Assembly: GCF_003148685.1 (NCBI RefSeq)
Contig: NZ_QGGR01000005.1
Coordinates: 248,001-312,000, forward strand
Direction: 5' to 3'
Origin: Actinoplanes xinjiangensis
Lineage (GTDB): Bacteria; Actinomycetota; Actinomycetes; Mycobacteriales; Micromonosporaceae
DNA length: 64,000 nt
This document shows, in pieces, positions 1 to 36,626 of this stretch (position 1 is its first letter; each line of letters starts with the position of its first letter). The translations under genes were made by a program, and so were the position numbers. The notes beneath the pieces are model-generated. The model was not told the origin of the DNA. It ran no database searches and worked only from the letters and a program-made list of their open reading frames with translations.

Positions 1-1232
1 CGGTGTCCAAGCAGGGCATCCGGGCCGAGCTGCACGGTGTGGCGATCGTCAAGGTCGGCGGCAACGAGGGGGCGATCCGGGCGGCCGCCCAGCGGTTCCT
101 GCACCAGCAGGCCGAGATCGAGGACTTCACCCGTGAGGTGCTGGCCGGTGCGCTGCGGTCGATCGTCGGCCGGCTCACCATCGAGGAGATCATCCGGGAC
201 CGGGCGGCGTTCGCCAGCGCGGTCGCCGAGGAGGCCGAGCACTCGATGACCAACCAGGGTCTGGTGCTCGACGCGTTCCAGTTGCAGGACATCGTGGCCG
301 AGGGGTCGTACCTGCAGGATCTGGGTCGTCCGGAGGCGGCGCGCGTGCTCAAGGACGCGGCCATCGCCGAGGCCCGGGCCCGGCAGGCCGCCGAGCAGGA
401 GCGGCTGCTCGCCGAGGAGGCGATCGCCGAGGCGAACCGGAACCTGTCGCTGAAGCAGGCCGGCATCCAGGCCGAGATCGACGCGGCGAAGGCGCAGTCG
501 GCGGCGGCCGGCCCGCTGGCCCAGGCCGAGCGGGACCAGAAGATCCTGGCCGAGCAGCAGAAGGTGGCCGAGCAGAACGCCGAGCTCAAGCAGCGTCAGC
601 TCGACACCGAGGTGCGCAAGCCGGCCGACGCCGCCCGGTACCGGGTGGAGCAGGAGGCCGAGGCGGCCCGCAGCGCCGCGGTGCTGCACGCCGACGCGCA
701 GCGGCAGGCCACCATCGCGGCCGCGCAGGCGCAGGCCGAGACGGCCCGCCTGACCGGTGAGGGTGAGCGGGCCCGTCGTGCCGCGCTGGCCGAGGCGCAC
801 GCGATCGAGGGTGCCAAGGAGGGTGAGGCGGAGCAGCGCCGGCGTACCGCGATCGCCGAGGCGATCGAGCGGGAGGGCTCGGCCGAGGCCGCGGCGATCC
901 TCGCGAAGGGTCAGGCCGAGGCGGAGGCGATGGCGCGCAAGGCCGAGGCGTTCGCGCAGTACGGCGACGCGGCCGTCATCGACCTGCTGGTGAAGGTGCT
1001 GCCGCAGGTCGTCGAGGCGGCCAGCGCCCCGCTCGCCAACGTCGACAAGCTGACCGTCATCTCGACCGACGGCGCGACGTCGCTGACCAAGTCGGTGGCC
1101 GGCAACGTGGCGCAGGGTCTGCAGATCGGCACCGATCTGACCGGCATCGACCTGACCGGGCTGCTGGCCCGGCTCGGCGGCGGCAAGGTGAACGGCGAGC
1201 ACCCGGCGGTCGAGGGCAAGGTCCAGGACTGA
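1..1232 (+). CDS. Flotillin-like SPFH/band-7 protein, C-terminal part (5' end outside window)
   Basis: This is the last ~410 codons of a flotillin-family scaffold, a membrane-associated protein of lipid microdomains. The reading frame is open from the first base, and flotillins have an N-terminal membrane hairpin and SPFH start that are missing here, so the gene begins upstream; the GTG at position 3 is internal. The visible part starts in the SPFH domain (KQGI-AELHGVAIVKVGG, then LAGALRSIVGRLTIEEI), followed by a long Ala/Glu/Arg coiled coil (about residues 110-320, with many AEA, AEQ and AEAxA heptads) and the Gly-rich tail typical of flotillins. It ends six bases from the convergent lipoprotein gene. 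Function is inferred from family; confidence in the family is high. Confidence 0.85.
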   Translation, partial: VSKQGIRAELHGVAIVKVGGNEGAIRAAAQRFLHQQAEIEDFTREVLAGALRSIVGRLTIEEIIRDRAAFASAVAEEAEHSMTNQGLVLDAFQLQDIVAEGSYLQDLGRPEAARVLKDAAIAEARARQAAEQERLLAEEAIAEANRNLSLKQAGIQAEIDAAKAQSAAAGPLAQAERDQKILAEQQKVAEQNAELKQRQLDTEVRKPADAARYRVEQEAEAARSAAVLHADAQRQATIAAAQAQAETARLTGEGERARRAALAEAHAIEGAKEGEAEQRRRTAIAEAIEREGSAEAAAILAKGQAEAEAMARKAEAFAQYGDAAVIDLLVKVLPQVVEAASAPLANVDKLTVISTDGATSLTKSVAGNVAQGLQIGTDLTGIDLTGLLARLGGGKVNGEHPAVEGKVQD

Positions 1233-1238
1233 GCGGAC

Positions 1239-1829
1239 TCACCCGGCCGGCAGGCAGCTGCCGGTCGGGTTGTTCTCCAGCCGGAGCTGGGTGAAGTCGG
1301 TGCCGACGAGTTTGAAGGCGAACACCAGCCGGTCCTTGCGGCACGCTTTGCTGTCGGCGCCGACGGCGTGACCGTCGGCCTTGATGATGATCTCCCCGGA
1401 CGTCACCTCCAGTCCGGTCACCCATGGCCGGCGCAACTCGGCGGTGGGACTGCTGAGCAGCGGCTGATCGATCCGCCAGGGGCGCTGGGCCGGGGACGAG
1501 CCGTCGAAGACCTCCACGGTCGAGCTGTCGCACGCGCGGGCGACGAGCGCGTCGGCGATGCCGTCGCCGGTCACGTCGGCGGTCACCACCTGCTGGACGG
1601 TCGGCTCCCGGGTCTTGTCCTCGCACGGCAGGACGAAGGTGTCCCAGTCGGCGTCCTTGCCGGCGCTCGCGAGGTTGCCACCGGGTGCCTCGGCCTCGGG
1701 CAGGTCGGTTGACGTGGACGCCGACGCGGATGCGGTCGCCGAGGGCGACACGGACGGGGTGCTCTCTCCACCGGACGTGCACCCGGCCACCAGCATCAGC
1801 GCCACAAAGGGGACAAACCTCATGATCAC
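1239..1829 (-). CDS. Putative lipoprotein with FG-GAP-like motif
   Basis: A 196-residue predicted lipoprotein: short signal peptide with lipobox LVAGC, then a Ser/Thr/Pro-rich linker (about residues 20-45) and a globular domain. The stretch DVTGDGIADALVA resembles the calcium-binding loop of FG-GAP/VCBS repeats, but only one copy is visible. The GTG start at 1829 overlaps the stop of the thiolase-like gene as GTGA, which argues for translational coupling; an ATG two codons later (1823) is an alternative. It lies at the end of the steroid operon and may be cotranscribed, but nothing in it points to steroid metabolism. Function unknown. Confidence 0.7.
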   Translation of the reverse strand: MIMRFVPFVALMLVAGCTSGGESTPSVSPSATASASASTSTDLPEAEAPGGNLASAGKDADWDTFVLPCEDKTREPTVQQVVTADVTGDGIADALVARACDSSTVEVFDGSSPAQRPWRIDQPLLSSPTAELRRPWVTGLEVTSGEIIIKADGHAVGADSKACRKDRLVFAFKLVGTDFTQLRLENNPTGSCLPAG

Positions 1830-2965
1830 AGACTAGAGGCGAGGACCAGTCCGCTCGTCGGAACTCCGGTTCCCGCGGTGACCAGCACCGGGCCGTCACC
1901 GGGCACCTGGTTGACGGCGGTGCCGCGGATCTGGCGGACCGCTTCGGCGATGCCGTTCATGCCGTGGATGTACGCCTCCCCCAGCTGCCCACCGTGCGGG
2001 TTCACCGGCAGCCGGCCGCCCAGCTCGATCCCGCCGTCCGCGATCAGGTGCCGGGCCTCCCCCCGGGGGCAGAAACCGAGTTCCTCCAACTGCATGAGGA
2101 CGTACGGGGTGAAGTGGTCGTACAGCACGGCGGTGCGGATGTCGGCCGGACCGTACCCGGATCGCCGCCACAGCTGCCGCGCGACCACCCCCATCTCCGG
2201 CAGCGCCCCCATCTCCGGCCGGTAGTAGCTGGTCATCACGTACTGGCCGGGCCCGCTGCCCTGTGCCGACGCGGCCACCACCGCGGGCGGCCGGGCCAGA
2301 TCACGGGCCCGCTCCAGCGACGTCACGACCACCGCGACCGCCCCGTCACTCTCCTGGCAGCAGTCGAGCAGCCGCAACGGTTCGGCGATCCACCGGGACG
2401 CGCGATGGTGGTCGAGGGTGATCGGCCGGCCGTGGAACCACGCGTACGGGTTGGTCGCCGCATGCCGCCGCGCCGCCACCGTGACCCGGCCGAAGTCGTC
2501 GGCGCTCGCTCCCGAGTCGTGCAGGTAGCGCCGGGCGACCATGGCGACCTGCGCGGCCGGGGTGGCCAGGCCCATCGGCGCGTGCCAGCCCGCGTCCGGG
2601 TCGGGTGAGGCGTAGGCCTGGCCGAACCGCCGGCCGGACCGCTCGTTGAGGGCGCGGTAGCAGACCACCACGTCGGCCAGCCCGGCGTCGACGGCGAGGA
2701 CCGCCTGCTGCACCACCGCGCACGCGGCGCCTCCGCCGTACCCGATCCGGGTCAGGAACGTCAGTTCGGCGATGCCCAGCTCGCGGGCGACGGCGATCTC
2801 GCTGTTGCCGTCCATGGTGAAGGTGACCAGGCCGGAGACGTCGGCGGGGCGCAGGCCGGCGTCGTCGAGGGCGGCCCGGATCGCCTCGACGGCCAGGCGC
2901 AGCTCGCTTCGGCCGGAGTCCTTGGAGAACTCGGTGGCGCCGATCCCGGCGATCGCGGCGGTCAC
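1826..2965 (-). CDS. ltp2: Thiolase-fold lipid-transfer protein, Ltp2-type steroid side-chain aldolase
   Basis: A 379-residue thiolase-superfamily protein of the SCPx/Ltp branch. In mycobacteria Ltp2 acts with the DUF35 domain of ChsH2 to split the 17-hydroxy C3 side-chain CoA ester by a retro-aldol reaction, releasing propionyl-CoA and the 17-keto steroid. Visible family marks are AAIAGIGATEFSK at the N-terminus, GGGAACAVVQQAVLAV, YDHFTPYVLMQLEELGFC and the C-terminal NPHGGQLGEAYIHGMNGI. GTG 2965 is chosen because it overlaps the upstream stop as GTGA and the protein then begins exactly where the family does; the longer frame to 3121 is Arg-rich shadow. Its position directly after a ChsH2/ChsH1-type gene supports the assignment. 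Substrate (cholesterol or another sterol) is inferred. Confidence 0.85.
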   Translation of the reverse strand: MTAAIAGIGATEFSKDSGRSELRLAVEAIRAALDDAGLRPADVSGLVTFTMDGNSEIAVARELGIAELTFLTRIGYGGGAACAVVQQAVLAVDAGLADVVVCYRALNERSGRRFGQAYASPDPDAGWHAPMGLATPAAQVAMVARRYLHDSGASADDFGRVTVAARRHAATNPYAWFHGRPITLDHHRASRWIAEPLRLLDCCQESDGAVAVVVTSLERARDLARPPAVVAASAQGSGPGQYVMTSYYRPEMGALPEMGVVARQLWRRSGYGPADIRTAVLYDHFTPYVLMQLEELGFCPRGEARHLIADGGIELGGRLPVNPHGGQLGEAYIHGMNGIAEAVRQIRGTAVNQVPGDGPVLVTAGTGVPTSGLVLASSL

Positions 2966-4230
2966 GAGGCCACCGCGCCGTCCCCGGAGAGGCCGGCGCC
3001 GTCGGGGGGCGCCACCTCGACGGTTCCGGTGACGTGCACGCCGGAGGCGGTGCGGCCGGTCACCTCGACACGGTCGCCGAACACCTGGCCGGTGAAGGTA
3101 AGGGTGTCGTAGGCGTGGCACGGCGTACCCAACCGGATCCTGATGCTCCTGATTCTGATCGCCGGGCCGAGCCGGTCGGTGACGAAACGCTGGACCAGAC
3201 CGGTGGTGGTGAGGATGTTGACGAAGATGTCCTTTCCGCCGAGGCGGACGGCGGCGTCACGGTCGTGGTGGACGTTCTGGAAGTCCCGGGTCGCCAGCGC
3301 GGTGCTGATGATCAGCGTGGGGGTGACGTGCAGTTCCCACGGGTCCAGCGTGGGCACGTCGGGGTGCCAGACCGGCAGGCCCGCGTCGAACGCGACACGC
3401 ACCGGGTCGCCGATCTCCGGGCGCGGGCCGCGGTACTCGGCGACCATCCGAACGCCTTCGGCGAGATCCACGAGCGCGATCGTGTACGGGGCACGCCGCC
3501 CCGGTACCGGCGGATGGTGGTGGACGACGTAGCTGTGGATCGTTCCGGCGCCGGTGGCCACGGTGTACTCCGGCTTGACGGAACCGCAGTCGGGGCAGGC
3601 CGGGCCGGGCGGGTGGCGCAGGGCACCGCACGCGCCGCAGCGTTGCAGGCGCAGTTCGCCGGCGGCGACGCCGTCCCAGAAGAAGGTGTTGTCCGCGGTC
3701 ACCACCGGCCGGATCGGCTCGGCGCGCGGGGTCTCCGGTGGCTTCTCCGGCCGGTACCGCAGGATCCGGAACGTCATCTCGGCGACCGGCTCGTCACCGA
3801 CCAGCCACCTGGTCGTGGTGGTGATGAACCAGCCCTCACCGAGCGAGGTGCGCTTCGGGCCGACCACCGAGGTGAGCCGGCTGCGGACGGTGACCTCTTC
3901 GCCGACCCGCAGGTACCGGTGATAGGTCTGCGCGGAGTCGGTGGCGACCACGGCACCGAACCCCGACCTGTCGCAGGCGCCGGACACGACCTGGAGCGGA
4001 TCGTCGGCGGACGGCGGCGCCAGCCCGCGCATCGTCCAGACCTGGATCATGGCGGGTGGCGCGGTCCCGGTGCGTTCGTAGGACGGGTTCGCGTCGCCCA
4101 TCGCCTCCAGCCAGGACCGGATCATCGGCAGGTTGACCGGATCCCGGCCGGGTTTCGCCGGGGTCTCCCCCGCCGGTAGCAGCAGGTCCGCTGCCGCGAG
4201 CGGGGAGGACGGGGCGGCCTCCGTCGTCAT
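2962..4230 (-). CDS. Fused ChsH2-ChsH1-type steroid enoyl-CoA hydratase with DUF35 domain
   Basis: This 422-residue protein joins three domains. An N-terminal MaoC-like hotdog (about 30-160, MIRSWLEAMGDANPSY) is followed by a DUF35 OB-fold with a zinc ribbon (about 175-290, CGACGALRHPPGPACPDCG) and a C-terminal MaoC hotdog (about 295-410). The last carries the hydratase Asp and His in ATRDFQNVHHDRDAA and IFVNILTTTGLVQRFVTD, sequences typical of ChsH1. In mycobacteria ChsH2 (MaoC plus DUF35) and ChsH1 are separate proteins that form a heterotetramer hydrating the C3 side-chain enoyl-CoA of cholesterol; here they are one chain. The DUF35 part is the docking partner of the aldolase encoded next. 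Domain calls are firm; the exact substrate is inferred. Confidence 0.87.
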   Translation of the reverse strand: MTTEAAPSSPLAAADLLLPAGETPAKPGRDPVNLPMIRSWLEAMGDANPSYERTGTAPPAMIQVWTMRGLAPPSADDPLQVVSGACDRSGFGAVVATDSAQTYHRYLRVGEEVTVRSRLTSVVGPKRTSLGEGWFITTTTRWLVGDEPVAEMTFRILRYRPEKPPETPRAEPIRPVVTADNTFFWDGVAAGELRLQRCGACGALRHPPGPACPDCGSVKPEYTVATGAGTIHSYVVHHHPPVPGRRAPYTIALVDLAEGVRMVAEYRGPRPEIGDPVRVAFDAGLPVWHPDVPTLDPWELHVTPTLIISTALATRDFQNVHHDRDAAVRLGGKDIFVNILTTTGLVQRFVTDRLGPAIRIRSIRIRLGTPCHAYDTLTFTGQVFGDRVEVTGRTASGVHVTGTVEVAPPDGAGLSGDGAVAS

Positions 4231-4234
4231 GGCT

Positions 4235-5377
4235 TCACCTCGGCACTCTCGGCAGGCCCAGGCCCGCGCTCGCGATGATCTCCCGCTGGATCTCGTTGAC
4301 CCCGCCGCCGAACGTCATCACCAGGTCCCGGCGCTCGTGCACGTCGAGCCAGTCGAGCAGCTCCGCCGTCGCCGGATCACCCGGGTCGCCGTGGCGGGCG
4401 ACCACCTCGGACAGTTCCTGCTCGAGCCGCAGCAGCCGCTCCGACGAGAAGACCTTGGTCGCCGAGGCGTCCGCGGGCTGCGGCGCGTCCCCGGCGACCT
4501 GCCAGTTGAGCAGCTCGTTCACGCGGCGCGCGGCGTGGGTGCGGGCCAGGGCGCGGCGGACGTCCGCCTCCTTCTCGACCCCCGCGGCGTACGCCCAGTC
4601 GCGCACCCGATCGAACAGGGCACCCATCCGCCCGGCCGGCCCGAGCATGACGCGTTCGTGGTTCAGCTGGGTGGTGATCAGTCGCCACCCGTCGCCCTCA
4701 CCACCGACCCGCCGCGCGACCGGCACCCGTACACCGCTGAGATAGGTCGCGTTGACGTGATGCGTCCCGTCGCACGTGATGATCGGCGTCCACGAATAGC
4801 CCGGATCCCGCGTGTCCACGATCAGGATCGACAGCCCGCGGTGCCGCTGCGCCGACGGGTCGGTCCGGCAGGCCAGCCACAGGAAGTCCGCCTCGTGCGC
4901 CCCGGTGGTGAACGTCTTCTGCCCGTCGACCACGTACTCGTCGCCGTGCCGCACGGCCCGCGTCCGCAGCGCGGCCAGATCGGTGCCCGCCTCCGGCTCG
5001 GTGTAGCCGATCGCGAAATGCAGCTCCCCGGCCAGGATCCGCGGCAGGAACTCCCGCCGCTGCTCCGCCGACCCGTGCGCCAGCAGGGTCGGCGCGACCG
5101 TCTGCAACGTCACCGCGGGCAGCGGCACGTCGGCGCGCGCCGCCTCGTTGACGAAGATCTGCTGCTCGGCATGGCCGAGCCCACGGCCGCCGTACTCCTC
5201 CGGGAACCCGAGTCCCAGCCACCCGTCGCGGCCGAGGCGGGACACCAGGTCACGAAACGCGGCACCATGCCGTTGCCGCAGCAGCACGCGCCGCTCCGCG
5301 GGCGTCAGGACCGTGCCGAGGTACGACCGGAGCCGCGCCTGGAGCCTCTGCTGTTCCTCGGTCAGTTCGATGAACAC
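4235..5377 (-). CDS. chsE2: Acyl-CoA dehydrogenase, ChsE2/FadE29-type subunit
   Basis: A 380-residue acyl-CoA dehydrogenase that, with its partner gene upstream, would form the alpha2beta2 enzyme dehydrogenating steroid CoA esters with a short side chain. Visible marks are FIELTEEQQRLQARLRSYL, the FAD/substrate motif FAIGYTEPEAGTDLAALRT, VDGQKTFTTGAHEADFLWLACRTD, and LNHERVMLG, where the Glu sits at the usual catalytic-base position. GTG 5377 is the start that aligns with the family and overlaps the upstream stop by 16 bases; the longer open frame upstream is Arg/Pro shadow. The gene order ChsE1-ChsE2-ChsH-Ltp2 matches the mycobacterial igr operon. Confidence 0.85.
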   Translation of the reverse strand: MFIELTEEQQRLQARLRSYLGTVLTPAERRVLLRQRHGAAFRDLVSRLGRDGWLGLGFPEEYGGRGLGHAEQQIFVNEAARADVPLPAVTLQTVAPTLLAHGSAEQRREFLPRILAGELHFAIGYTEPEAGTDLAALRTRAVRHGDEYVVDGQKTFTTGAHEADFLWLACRTDPSAQRHRGLSILIVDTRDPGYSWTPIITCDGTHHVNATYLSGVRVPVARRVGGEGDGWRLITTQLNHERVMLGPAGRMGALFDRVRDWAYAAGVEKEADVRRALARTHAARRVNELLNWQVAGDAPQPADASATKVFSSERLLRLEQELSEVVARHGDPGDPATAELLDWLDVHERRDLVMTFGGGVNEIQREIIASAGLGLPRVPR

Positions 5378-6339
5378 ACGCGCTCCCCCAGGACCGTCAG
5401 CCGGTACTCGCCGCCGCCGAGGAACCGGACCAGGTCCCGGATCAGCGCGGTGTGCCGGTGCAGCGGGTAGTCGATCGACAGGCCGAGCCCGCCGTGCAGG
5501 TGGTGGCAGGTGCGGGCGGCCGGTGGCGCCTCGGCGGTGAACCACTGGGCGGCGATGTCGAGGTCGTCGTCGGCGTCGCGGCCGGTGCCGAGCCGCCAGA
5601 GGGCGCCGGTCACCGCCAGGTGCAGGGTGCGGCCGGCCACGTAGACGTCGGCGATCTGCTGCGCGACGGCCTGGAAGGTGGCCAGTGGCTTCCCGAACTG
5701 CTCCCGGGTCCGCACGTGCTCGGCGGTCAGCGCGAGTGCTCCGGCGAGAGCCCCGTCCCCCAGCGCACAGGCCCCGGCGAGGGCGCATCGATGCAGATCC
5801 GCGTGGCACTCCGCGCCGCTCAAGGGCTGCGCCGGGGCGTTGTCGAGGCGCAGGATGCCGTCGGTCAGGGTGACGCCCGGGGCGGCCGGGTCGACGATCA
5901 CGACGGCCGGGCCGGCGACCGTCACCAGCAGCCGGTCGGCGGCGGTGACGCCGGTCTTGACGCCGGTGACCGTCCCGTCCGGGGCGAGCGCGGTGCGGGG
6001 CGCGGCCGGCAGCGGGTCGCCGGGTTCGGCGAGGGCGGCGCCGAGCGCCGGGCCGGTCAGCAGTTCGTCCTGCTGCGCCCGGGTGCCCCAGCGGGCGACC
6101 GGCAGGACGCCGAGCGCGAGGTGGTGCAGGGCGGGGACGTCGACGGCGCGGCGGCCGATCGCGGTGAGCACGAGCGCGGTCTCCAGCACACCGAGCCCGG
6201 CCCCGCCGAGTCGCTCCGGGACGGCCAGTGTGAGCAATCCGGCCTGGCCGAGCGCGGCCCACGGCTTGTCGGTCCCGTCCAGCACCTCGGCCGCGAGACG
6301 GGTGATCGCCTCCTGCGTCTCGTCCAGCCGGAAATCCAT
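5362..6339 (-). CDS. chsE1: Acyl-CoA dehydrogenase, ChsE1/FadE28-type subunit
   Basis: A 325-residue, short acyl-CoA dehydrogenase starting MDFRLDETQEAITRLAAEVL, close in length and opening to FadE28 (ChsE1). In ChsE1-ChsE2 each active site is built from both subunits, so this partner is expected to supply part of the FAD site and not act alone. LTAEHVRTREQFGKPLATFQ and ADVYVAGRTLHLAVTGALWRL are standard dehydrogenase C-terminal motifs. The ATG at 6339 lies 9 bases from a KstR operator, so repression of the whole operon from here is likely. It is the first gene of a four- or five-gene minus-strand operon. Confidence 0.83.
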   Translation of the reverse strand: MDFRLDETQEAITRLAAEVLDGTDKPWAALGQAGLLTLAVPERLGGAGLGVLETALVLTAIGRRAVDVPALHHLALGVLPVARWGTRAQQDELLTGPALGAALAEPGDPLPAAPRTALAPDGTVTGVKTGVTAADRLLVTVAGPAVVIVDPAAPGVTLTDGILRLDNAPAQPLSGAECHADLHRCALAGACALGDGALAGALALTAEHVRTREQFGKPLATFQAVAQQIADVYVAGRTLHLAVTGALWRLGTGRDADDDLDIAAQWFTAEAPPAARTCHHLHGGLGLSIDYPLHRHTALIRDLVRFLGGGEYRLTVLGERVCSSN

Positions 6340-6348
6340 GAGACAGAT

Positions 6349-6362
6349 TAGAACACGTTTCA
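6349..6362. promoter_or_regulatory. KstR operator (TAGAACACGTTTCA)
   Basis: The 14-mer fits the KstR consensus TnnAACnnGTTnnA at every fixed position. It lies in the divergent intergenic region between the chsE1-type gene and kstR, close to both starts, so it can serve autorepression and control of the catabolic operon. The consensus is known from mycobacteria and rhodococci; binding here is inferred. Confidence 0.85.
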
Positions 6363-6440
6363 GTTTATGGTCGCCACCGCCGGGTGACACGGGGACGCAA
6401 CGTCCCGTTGCTAGGCTTGATTCACCGGGAAGGAGAGACC

Positions 6441-7070
6441 ATGGCGACAGCGAGAACGAGTACCACTACGCGCAGTGCTCTAGCGGGCGCTGAGGTGGAG
6501 CAGGGTTCGGCCGCACAGCGTGATCGGCGGCGGCGGATCCTCGAGGCGACGCTGGCGCTGGCCTCCAAGGGCGGTTACGACGCGGTGCAGATGCGCACGG
6601 TCGCGGAGCGGGCCGGGGTGGCCCTCGGCACGCTCTACCGCTACTTCCCGTCGAAGATCCACCTGCTGGTGTCGGCGCTCGCCTCCGAGTTCGAGTCGAT
6701 CCAGGAGAAGCTCGGGCGCAAACCCATTCCGGGCGATACGCCGTACGATCGGATGATCTTCGTCCTCGGCCGGATGACCCGCGCCATGCAGCGCGAACCG
6801 CTGCTCGCCGAGGCCATGACGCGGGCCTTCATGTTCGCCGACCCGTCAGCGTCCGCCGAGGTCAACGCGGTGGCGCGGCTGATGGAGGAGATGTTCACCC
6901 GGGCCATGCACTCCGGCGACGACGTCGAGCCGACGGCGGACGACCGGGCGAAGGCGCGGGTGATCGGTGACGTGTGGCTGTCCAACCTGGTCGCGTGGGT
7001 GACGCGCCGGGCCTCGGCCAACGACGTGGTCAACCATCTCGAGTTGGCCACCCGCCTGCTCCTGCACTGA
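6441..7070 (+). CDS. kstR: TetR-family repressor of steroid catabolism KstR
   Basis: A 209-residue TetR-family repressor very like mycobacterial KstR. The DNA-binding segment GGYDAVQMRTVAERAGVALGTLYRYFPSKIHLLVSAL is nearly the known KstR sequence (here quoted in part: GGYDAVQMRTVAERAGVA, then GTLYRYFPSK), and the ligand domain keeps MTRAMQREPLLAEAMTRAF and VIGDVWLSNLVAWVTRRASA. KstR responds to a steroid CoA thioester and represses ring and side-chain genes. ATG 6441 is preceded by a clear AGGAGAG Shine-Dalgarno. A frame-compatible GTG at 6384 would add a tail overlapping the promoter and is rejected. The adjacent operator is described separately. Confidence 0.95.
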   Translation: MATARTSTTTRSALAGAEVEQGSAAQRDRRRRILEATLALASKGGYDAVQMRTVAERAGVALGTLYRYFPSKIHLLVSALASEFESIQEKLGRKPIPGDTPYDRMIFVLGRMTRAMQREPLLAEAMTRAFMFADPSASAEVNAVARLMEEMFTRAMHSGDDVEPTADDRAKARVIGDVWLSNLVAWVTRRASANDVVNHLELATRLLLH

Positions 7071-7162: not shown

Positions 7163-7594
7163 TTACTGGACCAGGTCGGTCAGCTTCTCCAGGGCCTGCC
7201 TGGCGGCGGGACCGGCCTGCTTCTCCAGCATGGCGGCCATCGGGCCGTTGAGGGCGGGCCCGATGAACTCCATCTCGTAGGTGATCTTCGAGCCGGCGCC
7301 CTCGGGTTCGATGATGAAGCGGTTCTTGGCCTTGACACCCATCGGGCCGTCGCCGGCCATCTCGAGACGGTTCGGGGCGTCCGCCGTGACGACCTTCCAG
7401 GCCATCTCGGCGGGCATGCCCATCAACTTCACCTTCTGCTTGTACGTGGCGCCCTCCGTCACCGCGGCCGGCAGGTCACCGGTGAAGCCCTGGTGCATGC
7501 TGTTCCACTCGGGGGTCCGGGGCAGATCGGTGACGACCTGCCACACCTTGTCGGGCTCGGCGGCGGAGTTGGCCGAGACGGTCACCTTGGGCAT
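7163..7594 (-). CDS. SRPBCC (START/polyketide-cyclase-like) family protein
   Basis: A 143-residue SRPBCC-fold protein, a family with a deep hydrophobic pocket for lipids and steroids. Motifs are PDKVWQVVTDLPRTPEWNSMHQGF at the N-terminus and the amphipathic C-terminal helix AARQALEKLTDLVQ. ATG 7594 is chosen because AGGAGG lies seven bases upstream; the ATG at 7600 abuts that Shine-Dalgarno. It follows kstD-type gene on the same strand with a 67-base gap, so shared KstR control from the operator at 9347 is plausible. Ligand and role are unknown; a steroid-binding job is inferred from context only. Confidence 0.75.
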   Translation of the reverse strand: MPKVTVSANSAAEPDKVWQVVTDLPRTPEWNSMHQGFTGDLPAAVTEGATYKQKVKLMGMPAEMAWKVVTADAPNRLEMAGDGPMGVKAKNRFIIEPEGAGSKITYEMEFIGPALNGPMAAMLEKQAGPAARQALEKLTDLVQ

Positions 7595-7661
7595 GAGCAT
7601 TCCTCCTGGTTCAGGCGACCGGCCGGGCGGAACTGGTCCGCCGGCCGGCCGCGAGGTCCTG

Positions 7662-9305
7662 TCAGCCGCCGGCCCCGATGTCGAGGCCGGCCACGTGTCC
7701 GAAGGTCATCGCCGGCCCGAGGGTGGATCCGGCACCGGCATAGCTGTGGCCCATCACCGCGGCACTGGCGTTACCGGCCGCGTACAGGCCGGGGATGACC
7801 GTGCCGTCCGGGCGCACCACCCGGGCGCGGGCGTCGGTGACCAGGCCGCCTTTGGTGCCCAGATCCCCGGGCACGATCTTGAACGCGTAGTACGGCGGCA
7901 GCCAGATCGGCGCGAGGCACGGGCTGGGCCCGTTCGTCGGGTCGGCGAAGTAGGCGTCGTAAACGCTGTCACCGCGGTGGAAGTCGGGGTCCCGGCCACT
8001 GCGGGCCTGTCCGTTGAACCGGCTGATCGTCGCGCTCAGCGCCGCCGCCGGTACGCCGATCTTCGCGGCCAGCCCGGCAAGCGTCCAGTCCTTGACCAGG
8101 GCACCCGACGAGTACCAGTCGGCCGGGTAGGGCAGCAGCGGGGCCAGGTCCTTGAACAGGTAGCGGTTGCGGTAGTCCTGGTCGGTGATCATCCAGCAGG
8201 GGACGTGGCCCTTGTCGTACATGGTGTGCACGACGTCGCTGTAGGGCGCGGCCTCGTTGACGAATCTCCGGCCGGCCTGGTTGACGAAGACGGTGCCGGG
8301 CAGGGTCCGTTCGGACAGGCAGAACCACGGCTCACCGGGCAGCGGGATCATCGGTCCCCACCAGGCGTCGTCCATCAGAGCGAGAGCGGCGCCGGCCCGC
8401 TCGCCGGCCTCGATGCCGTCGCCGGTGTTGGAGTCGGCGCCGATCGTCCAGTCGGTGCCGATCGGGGCGGCCTGGAACTGTTTGCGCATCCGCTCGTTGT
8501 GCTCGAACCCGCCGCTGGCGACCACCACGGCACGCCGGGCCCGGATCAGCGTCTCGGCACCGTCGTGCCGGGCCAGCACCCCGGCGACCCGCCCGTTCTC
8601 CACGTGCAGGTCGAGCAGCGGGGTGTCGAGCCAGACCGGCACCCCGGCCGCGATCAGCCCGGCCCGCAGCCCGCCGGCCAGCGCCTGGCCCATGGTGACC
8701 GGCTTCTGCCCCCGGGCGGCGGCCTGAAGGTAGCGCCAGACGATCTCGGAGGCCACCACCAGGCCGCGCGGGTGCCGGGCGATCAGCGACAGCCACTTGT
8801 AGTCGACCGTGTAGACCACGGTGCCGGGCGGGCTCGCCTGATAGGGACCGTTGAGACGGGCCAGTTCGTCGCCGAGGATGTTGGCGTCGAGGGCCTGCGG
8901 CTCGATCGAGCGGCCGTTCGGCATGCCGCCGGGCAGCTCGGGATAGTAGTCGGGGTAGCCCTCCATCCACGCGAACCGCAGGGGGGTCCACTTCTGGAGG
9001 TAGGCGATGGCTCGCGGGCCGGAGGTCAGGAAGGCCCGGCGGCGGGCCGCGGGCACCTCGGGACCGACCACGGCGGCCAGGTAGGTGTCGGCCTTGCTGA
9101 AGGTGTCGGGCACTCCGGCGGCGAGCAGGACGTCGTTGTTCGGCACCCAGATCCCGGAGCCGGACCGGGCCGACGATCCACCGTAGACGGACGCTTTTTC
9201 GATGAGAACCGTGTTCAGCCCGGAGCGGGCCGTTGTCAGCGCGGCTGTCATGCCGGCGGCGCCGGCACCCACCACGACCACGTCGTATTCCACGGTGACC
9301 GCCAT
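7662..9305 (-). CDS. kstD: 3-oxosteroid 1-dehydrogenase-like FAD flavoprotein
   Basis: A 547-residue flavoprotein of the fumarate reductase/KstD family that introduces the C1-C2 double bond in 3-ketosteroid ring A. The N-terminal FAD motif is VVVVGAGAAGMTAALTTARSG, with IEKASVYGGSSARSGSG following; the C-terminal part has YYAFKIVPGDLGTKGGLVTD, the region carrying the active-site Tyr and Gly in characterised KstDs, and GLYAAGNASAAVMGHSYAGAG. Length is normal for the family. Its start lies 42 bases from a KstR operator at 9347-9360. A 4-ene dehydrogenase with another steroid preference cannot be excluded from sequence alone. Confidence 0.85.
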   Translation of the reverse strand: MAVTVEYDVVVVGAGAAGMTAALTTARSGLNTVLIEKASVYGGSSARSGSGIWVPNNDVLLAAGVPDTFSKADTYLAAVVGPEVPAARRRAFLTSGPRAIAYLQKWTPLRFAWMEGYPDYYPELPGGMPNGRSIEPQALDANILGDELARLNGPYQASPPGTVVYTVDYKWLSLIARHPRGLVVASEIVWRYLQAAARGQKPVTMGQALAGGLRAGLIAAGVPVWLDTPLLDLHVENGRVAGVLARHDGAETLIRARRAVVVASGGFEHNERMRKQFQAAPIGTDWTIGADSNTGDGIEAGERAGAALALMDDAWWGPMIPLPGEPWFCLSERTLPGTVFVNQAGRRFVNEAAPYSDVVHTMYDKGHVPCWMITDQDYRNRYLFKDLAPLLPYPADWYSSGALVKDWTLAGLAAKIGVPAAALSATISRFNGQARSGRDPDFHRGDSVYDAYFADPTNGPSPCLAPIWLPPYYAFKIVPGDLGTKGGLVTDARARVVRPDGTVIPGLYAAGNASAAVMGHSYAGAGSTLGPAMTFGHVAGLDIGAGG

Positions 9306-9346: not shown

Positions 9347-9360
9347 TAGAACAGGTTATA
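9347..9360. promoter_or_regulatory. KstR operator (TAGAACAGGTTATA)
   Basis: All fixed positions of TnnAACnnGTTnnA are met. It lies between the divergent kstD-type gene and the thioesterase gene and could control both. Binding is inferred from the consensus and from the kstR gene 3 kb away. Confidence 0.85.
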
Positions 9361-35469: not shown

Positions 35470-36626
35470 TTGAACCGGCCTCTGGTGAAGTCGGTGGGTA
35501 CGAACTTTCCGCCCTCGATCGTGTTGACCGCGATGAAGTCGGTGGTCAGGCCGGAGTGGTCGGTCGCGGAGTAGGTGTAGGTGCCGTTCGGGGTGGTGAG
35601 GGTCAGGCCTTCGAGGGCGTCGCGGACCTTCGCCCGGTCGGTGCCGCCGGCCTTCTCGATCGCGGCGGCCAGCAGTTTCACGCCGCTGTAGCCGTCCTGG
35701 GCGAACTGGGGTGGCGGGTAGCCGTACTTGGTGGTGAAGGCGCTGGTCAGCTCGTCGACGGCGGTCTTCAGCTCACCGGCGGGGAGGTGCTCGCCGACGA
35801 CCCCGACCGAACTGGCGATGATCGCGCCGTCGGCGGCCGGGCCGGCCGGGTCCAGGAACAGTTTGCTGGCCTGCGAGCCGGTCAGCATCAGCGGGATGGT
35901 CAGGCCGGACGCGGCGTACCCCTTGGTGATCGCGACGGCCGGGGCGCCGGTCCCCCACAGCATCAGCGCCTGCGCGTCCGACGACCGGACGTGGGTGAAG
36001 ATCGCGCCGAACTCGGTGGCGGTGGTCTGGAACTCCTCGATCGGGCCGAGGGTCACGCCGTACTGGGCGGCCTTGGCCTGCATGCCTTTGAAACCGGCGA
36101 CCGCGTAGCTGCTCTTGGTGTCGTAGGCGACGGCGATCCTGGTCAGCTTCGCCGACTGGAGGTACTGCAGGGCGGCCTCGGCGTAGGTGCCGGACAGGGC
36201 GGGGACGACGAAGACGTACGGATGGATGGGGTTGACCTGCTCGTCGGCCGGGGTGAGCGAGACGTAGGGGATCTCCTCGCGGTCCACCAGCGGGATGGTG
36301 GCGAGCGCGGAGTTGCTGAACGGCGACCCGATGATGGCGTCGGAGCCGTCCTTCAACTCGTTGAACGCGAGGACCGCCTGGTCGGGCAGGCTCTTGTCGT
36401 CGCGGACGGACAGTTCGATCCGGCGGCCCCCGACGCCCCCGGCCGCGTTGATCTTCTCGACGGCGAGGGCCACGGATTTCTGATTCTCGGTGCCGAGCGG
36501 CGAGTAGTTGCCGGTGAGCGAGACGATCTGGCCGACCCGGATCGGGTCGTCGCCGTCGGCCGCCTCGTTGCCGCAGGCGGTCAGGGCTAGGGCGAGGGCC
36601 AGCAGGAGCGGCCCGGTTCTGCGCAT
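35466..36626 (-). CDS. ABC substrate-binding lipoprotein, branched-chain amino acid/aromatic type
   Basis: A 386-residue binding lipoprotein (MRRTGPLLLALALALTACGN, lipobox LTAC) with IRVGQIVSLTGNYSPLGTENQKSVALAVEKINAAGG of the LivK fold (in part: VGQIVSLTGNYSPLGTENQ). It is the first gene of a five-gene operon. Its divergent neighbour is a PaaX-family regulator, a family that senses aryl-CoA esters, so an aromatic acid is a candidate cargo; this is inference. A sigma70-like promoter is visible upstream. Confidence 0.92.
   Translation of the reverse strand: MRRTGPLLLALALALTACGNEAADGDDPIRVGQIVSLTGNYSPLGTENQKSVALAVEKINAAGGVGGRRIELSVRDDKSLPDQAVLAFNELKDGSDAIIGSPFSNSALATIPLVDREEIPYVSLTPADEQVNPIHPYVFVVPALSGTYAEAALQYLQSAKLTRIAVAYDTKSSYAVAGFKGMQAKAAQYGVTLGPIEEFQTTATEFGAIFTHVRSSDAQALMLWGTGAPAVAITKGYAASGLTIPLMLTGSQASKLFLDPAGPAADGAIIASSVGVVGEHLPAGELKTAVDELTSAFTTKYGYPPPQFAQDGYSGVKLLAAAIEKAGGTDRAKVRDALEGLTLTTPNGTYTYSATDHSGLTTDFIAVNTIEGGKFVPTDFTRGRFK

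Follow-up and report, generated by a model that had tools for sequence, protein, structure and literature searches.

A ChsH2-DUF35-ChsH1 fusion in a predicted KstR-type operon of Actinoplanes xinjiangensis, and its fused and split counterparts in actinobacteria

The fused gene and its operon

The window analysed here, a stretch of 64,000 nucleotides from the Actinoplanes xinjiangensis genome, carries on its reverse strand an open reading frame (2962..4230, stop included) that runs from an ATG start to a TGA stop and codes for 422 residues with zero internal stops. In phmmer searches against solved chains, residues 18-167 of the product resemble M. tuberculosis ChsH2 (4wnb_A, E 3.9e-42), residues 173-294 the DUF35 domain of T. 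curvata ChsH2 (6ok1_B, E 7.2e-29) and residues 297-410 M. tuberculosis ChsH1 (4wnb_B, E 6.2e-37). An earlier note on this DNA had proposed that the two hydratase subunits of mycobacteria are one polypeptide here, with the DUF35 docking domain in the middle of the chain; the order ChsH2, DUF35, ChsH1 is borne out by phmmer and Pfam, and the central position of DUF35 by the domain matches. The Pfam families FAS1_DH_region, zf-ChsH2 and OB_ChsH2_C all exceed their cut-offs; for the C-terminal MaoC domain the score is 22.9 bits, under the cut-off of 27, so that the identity of this domain rests on the phmmer match to ChsH1 together with the structural model. On the 4wnb_B match it is of the ChsH1 type, as the note had it.

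Along the chain, the ChsH2-type MaoC domain (residues 24-162; 3745..4161, reverse strand, as are all parts of the gene) has Tyr51 at the place of the catalytic His, as located by phmmer and alignment. Profile borders delimit a first linker (residues 163-174; 3709..3744) with a dN/dS of 0.5-2.2 in eight comparisons over few sites. It is followed by the DUF35 domain (residues 175-292; 3355..3708), a zinc ribbon plus OB fold recognised by Pfam and phmmer with cysteines at 198, 201, 212 and 215; by a DUF35-ChsH1 junction of 5 residues between profile borders (3340..3354), which is ordered in the model; and by the ChsH1-type MaoC domain (residues 298-409; 3004..3339; phmmer and alignment), which holds Asp316 and His321. 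When 67 fused proteins are aligned, all of them share Asp316, His321, His322 and Asp323, and 65 have Cys at each of the four zinc-ribbon positions. Column 51, in the first MaoC domain, is Tyr in 50, Trp in 10, another residue in 5 and a gap in 2, with His in 0. What speaks against calling this domain His-less is that 15 of the 67 have a His elsewhere within residues 49-54, inside an inserted loop. Whole-gene dN/dS against eight relatives is 0.23-0.33; for the DUF35-ChsH1 junction, taken together with the 10 residues flanking it at either end, it is 0.25-1.07 (few sites), below the value for the first linker. At E 0.001 the genome has a single match to the fused protein, and the nearest sequence to it by identity is that of A. 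philippinensis (87%). We regard it as confirmed that an intact frame joins a ChsH2-type MaoC domain, DUF35 and a ChsH1-type MaoC domain in one chain, and that the earlier observation was real.

The fusion is the third gene of a tightly packed series in the order chsE1-type, chsE2-type, fusion, ltp2-type. The first two, chsE1-type (5362..6339, reverse strand) and chsE2-type (4235..5377, reverse strand, start inferred), have acyl-CoA dehydrogenase domains and take their names from their place in the operon. The ltp2-type aldolase gene (1826..2965, reverse strand) matches 6ok1_A at E 1.7e-162 and scores 643 bits against NF005892 (cut-off 469), and its start overlaps the stop of the fusion in the sequence GTGA (2962..2965, reverse strand). 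A pattern search finds the KstR box TNNAACNNGTTNNA without mismatch 9 bases ahead of the chsE1 start (6349..6362), the consensus being the one listed for PMC1995591. Divergent from the operon lies kstR (6441..7070, forward strand; NF033703, 323 bits, cut-off 280), and further on kstD, coding for 3-oxosteroid 1-dehydrogenase (7662..9305, reverse strand; NF005882, 861 bits, cut-off 788), with a second exact box upstream of it at 9347..9360, found by the same search. With at most one mismatch, the pattern occurs 8 times in the window against 2.33 expected, and three of the matches are exact (6349, 9347 and 36352), the third (36352-36365) lying far from the operon. These features point to a KstR-type igr operon, in which KstR control is predicted from the boxes and the neighbouring kstR.

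Beside kstD there is a gene for an SRPBCC-fold protein (7163-7600, reverse strand) that matches the NCBIfam Rv0910 family toxin at 160 bits (cut-off 100). In the sequence to the left of the window (L184) we find a 1198-residue frame (1606-5202, reverse strand) with pieces of an FAD-binding domain and, in its middle and at its end, long repeats rich in Ser/Pro/Gly and in Ala/Thr/Pro; a second KstD-like FAD protein (5021-6625, forward strand) and an FAA_hydrolase-domain protein (822-2612, reverse strand). The KstD-like and FAA_hydrolase-domain proteins suggest that the steroid gene region continues leftward.

The gene neighbourhood was compared across related loci, with ltp2 counted where at least 1.3 kb of downstream sequence was available and the chsE genes where at least 2.7 kb was available upstream. 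On this basis ltp2 lies no more than 300 bases downstream in every locus counted, whether one-gene (65 of 65), two-gene (49 of 49) or three-gene (9 of 9). Upstream, chsE2 is present throughout the same three classes (38 of 38, 48 of 48 and 8 of 8), and chsE1 in all one-gene (38 of 38) and three-gene loci (8 of 8) and in 40 of 48 two-gene loci. Against this operon support stand eight fused loci of distant clades, outside the main chsE count, with no same-strand chsE2 in the 1.2-1.5 kb upstream. A distant fused clade of six loci (L139, L152, L155, L156, L160 and L161; family f28) has ltp2 downstream and no same-strand chsE2 directly upstream, and one of the eight (L180), inspected over a wider range, has chsE-like frames on the opposite strand. 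The upstream part of the operon is therefore not kept in every fused lineage.

Predicted structure of the chain

The AlphaFold2 model of the window fusion as a single chain has a mean pLDDT of 92.6 and a pTM of 0.87. The residue blocks from 281 to 310, which span the DUF35-ChsH1 junction, reach pLDDT 93-97; the 12-residue first linker is less sure, at 81-88. Taken as one rigid body, the model fits 5i7n with Z 26.0 (2.3 A over 250 residues) and the human MFE-2 hydratase 1s9c with Z 24.0 (2.6 A over 249 residues), while 226 of 233 residues are fitted to HtdX (3wew) at 2.5 A. All 35 VIA-align rows with Z of at least 22 are double-hotdog chains or fatty acid synthases, aligned over 221-260 residues at 2.3-3.2 A and spanning the chain from about residue 1-25 to about 407-413. 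Since so few residues are aligned across so long a span, DUF35 would appear to be left out of the rigid-body fit. By itself, the DUF35 of the model fits 6ok1 with Z 18.5 (1.2 A over 119 residues).

A fusion from Aeromicrobium, modelled in the same way, fits 5i7n with Z 26.9 (3.2 A over 262 residues; pTM 0.70), and its second junction, of 16 residues, is of low confidence. From the models of these two fusions we conclude that both MaoC domains are predicted to pair in cis as a double hotdog, with DUF35 outside. Against this reading, Foldseek alignments to the same double-hotdog chains pass through the insert and give an rmsd of about 5 to 17 A. Across the 67 fusions, the second junction has 4-10 residues in 44 and 14-42 in 23; of the 30 fusions in the genus group, 24 have a second junction of 5 residues and the remainder one of 6 or 8.

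Distribution and history of fused and split loci

The same fusion was sought in other actinobacteria, and it is found in many members of the window's genus group and in further actinobacterial lineages. In a survey of the family, 68 of 354 genomes have a match at E 1e-15. Within the genus group, 30 of the 31 genomes matching at that threshold, the window's own included, encode all three domains as a single open frame, and the one split genome (G088) has an ATGA overlap. Two further genera of the same family (G117 and G364) are also fused, and the ten split loci read in the family overlap by ATGA or GTGA. In a first sample of the genus the fusion was present in 18 of 36 genomes, again including the window's own, and many members of the genus are without it. 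A search of the class found a match at E 1e-15 in 159 of 394 genomes, with loci taken from part of the listed matches, and a phylum-wide sample found one at E 1e-40 in 27 of 396; among the matches listed, none of the 8 from outside the class extends across all three domains.

These searches yielded 180 loci with all three domains, of which 145 remained after identical domain sequences were dropped, a step that also merged identical genomes present in two collections. This set, a biased sample drawn in part from the best 80 of 552 relatives of a fused query, comprises 67 one-gene, 68 two-gene and 10 three-gene loci, and natural two-gene and three-gene counterparts of the fusion are present among actinobacteria. 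Beyond Actinoplanes and its near kin, fused records come from Rhizocola, Catelliglobosispora, Nocardiopsis, Trebonia, Aeromicrobium, Nocardioides jensenii, N. allogilvus and Nocardia stercoris, as well as from MAGs of Streptosporangiaceae, Nocardioides and Gordonia. One genus (g108), whose family also includes an Aeromicrobium-like fusion, has all three states among its 11 loci, with 9 three-gene, 1 two-gene and 1 one-gene. In the three-gene loci of this genus (L164 and L166-L173), the ChsH2 MaoC domain, DUF35 and ChsH1 are separate genes, and the boundary between MaoC and DUF35 is a short overlap, such as GTGA or TGATG, or one stop codon; in one of them (L149/L173) a single stop codon in the same frame separates the two. 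In the three-gene locus from outside this genus (L040, genome G346), MaoC and DUF35 lie in different frames, a state that may be due to a sequencing frameshift.

A distant single-chain relative with 31% identity by blastp (L046 in genome G243; 4334-5617, reverse strand) has the order MaoC, OB remnant, MaoC; the OB remnant is just below the Pfam cut-off and the zinc ribbon is missing, with 3 Cys in 428 residues. Long matches akin to it occur in four further genomes (G250, G270, G200 and G181).

A maximum-likelihood tree of all 145 loci, quickly built and under one model, requires 12 changes of the fused/split label, 8 of them forced by starred branches, against an average of 48 for shuffled labels. 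One fused locus (L077) sits on a long branch. A single origin for all 67 fusions was rejected on this quick, one-model tree (p-AU 7.4e-12, 809 log units). Holding the 30 fused loci of the Actinoplanes group together improves the likelihood by 11.7 log units (p-AU 0.83), and one origin within that group, as judged from these sequences, is not rejected. If costs are set equal and the root is split, the tree fits either 8 gains with 5 losses or 3 gains with 9 losses, depending on rooting; over the roots and costs considered it permits anything from 0 to 13 gains, and gain is indistinguishable from loss. According to the available text of PMC12502768, the genes are split in mycobacteria and Comamonas, which suggests, but does not prove, that the split arrangement is older than the fused.

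Proposed working of the one-chain hydratase and its known counterparts

How might such a chain work? By homology, the gene product would be a one-chain ChsH1-ChsH2 hydratase acting on the C3 side chain of steroids, whose two MaoC domains are modelled as pairing within the chain as a double hotdog. The C-terminal domain would supply the catalytic pair Asp316/His321, and the N-terminal MaoC domain, without the His, would hold the steroid rings; a catalytic half and a ring-holding half would, again by homology, make one active site per chain. DUF35, placed outside between the halves, is expected to bind Ltp2, the product of the next gene, so that with Ltp2 docked there the hydrated product would be cleaved and the unfavourable hydration pulled forward. 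One chain fixes the ratio of the hydratase halves at 1:1, and the fixed stoichiometry put forward in the earlier note therefore stands. The dock would be anchored at both ends, through a fast-evolving stretch of about 12 residues towards ChsH2 and an ordered one of about 5 towards ChsH1, and the shortness of the latter should restrict the swing of the aldolase. The fusion in Actinoplanes and Couchioplanes would have had one origin, for which the simplest route would be to lose the brief stop/start overlap that split relatives show. Taken as a whole, a single-chain ChsH1-ChsH2 hydratase with a cis double hotdog, a doubly anchored Ltp2 dock and one origin in Actinoplanes-Couchioplanes is the best reading, to which we assign a probability of about 0.85. 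Several observations weigh against this reading: in the Comamonas Shy-Sal pair, which has a 26-residue loose linker, 93% of the intermediate escapes (PMC12329534, available text), Comamonas MaoC and DUF35 remain functional when produced separately (PMC12502768, available text), and 9 of the 11 loci of genus g108 have three separate genes.

Could the fusion be an artefact? In split relatives a few bases are shared between genes read in different frames, and a single indel would be enough to join them, but 30 genus-group genomes are fused and whole-gene dN/dS is 0.23-0.33 over eight comparisons, on which grounds chance or assembly error as the source of the fusion is excluded; there is no frame break to be seen either, and the clean frame described in the earlier note is upheld. 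A joined gene might alternatively give a domain-swapped dimer, its halves pairing between two chains so that the product is a cross-linked tetramer with no self-contained chain. In mycobacteria the enzyme forms an alpha2beta2 tetramer (PMC12502768, in the part available) and a domain of about 118 residues lies between the halves here, both of which favour swapping, but in both modelled fusions, which come from separate clades, the single chain has its halves paired in cis, and we consider a swapped dimer unlikely.

A more serious contender grants the enzyme and denies the fusion any benefit of its own: neighbours with a 4-base overlap would fuse and split by single indels, giving the same enzyme complex every time. 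The gene that comes next is ltp2 whether a locus has one, two or three genes, the tree has its 12 state changes and its mixed gains and losses under either rooting, all three states occur inside genus g108, and separated domains work in Comamonas (PMC12502768, available text). On the other side, the fusion is kept in 30 of the 31 matching genus-group genomes, and the genus-group second junction is 5 residues long in 24 of 30; weak support comes from the dN/dS of the junction with its flanks, 0.25-1.07 over few sites. We judge the chances of this explanation to be about even. Its converse is that the short-junction fusion is a selected answer to the unfavourable hydration, in which DUF35 pinned to both halves would hold the aldolase in one orientation and hand the hydrated steroid-CoA on to Ltp2 with little escape, in contrast to the loosely tethered Shy-Sal pair; lineages with long junctions or three genes would use diffusion. 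This we think improbable. The natural three-gene loci, Shy-Sal without channelling and the Comamonas parts active apart all speak against a need for linkage. The overall interpretation of the earlier note is, on balance, partly supported.

In the open-access main texts available to us, including PMC11321319, PMC12502768, PMC12329534, PMC10398937, PMC8708139, PMC7807495 and PMC8399759, no mention of a ChsH2-DUF35-ChsH1 chain was found, although a published remark may exist. The closest known systems are M. tuberculosis ChsH1-ChsH2 (4w78, 4wnb) and the DUF35-Ltp2 complex of T. curvata ChsH2 (6ok1), which have the same three domains, catalytic pair, zinc ribbon and operon partners. The window system has the ChsH2-type MaoC domain without the catalytic His, the four-Cys DUF35, the ChsH1-type Asp/His MaoC domain and the igr-type operon; ChsH1-ChsH2 is, however, encoded there by two genes and forms an alpha2beta2 tetramer, whereas here one frame codes for one chain, which makes it a fused variant and no plain member of the group. 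Like the single-chain double-MaoC hydratases (MFE-2 hydratase 2, ChsH3, CasD and CasQ), it has both halves in one chain as a double hotdog, in its case in a predicted model. ChsH3, CasD and CasQ are fused MaoC pairs without DUF35, described together with Shy in the available text of PMC11321319, whereas the window fusion has one.

Comamonas Shy-Sal, of which 9myr is the DUF35-aldolase part, likewise has MaoC and DUF35 in one chain and a DUF35 that docks a thiolase-like aldolase. Shy differs in having one homodimerising MaoC domain, an N-terminal DUF35 joined by the loose linker and a C5 side chain as substrate (available texts of PMC11321319 and PMC12329534), whereas the window fusion has two MaoC domains and DUF35 mid-chain. 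As far as the available texts go, the Shy-Sal pair has no significant channelling (PMC12329534), the Comamonas MaoC and DUF35 parts are functional when expressed apart (PMC12502768), and channelling in ChsH1-ChsH2-Ltp2 is named as an open case (PMC12329534). A one-chain hydratase is a simpler part for structural work and for steroid biocatalysis. Nature gives the same enzyme with zero, one or two covalent tethers on its docking domain, and with junctions short or long; the channelling question is therefore testable with close homologues from soil bacteria.
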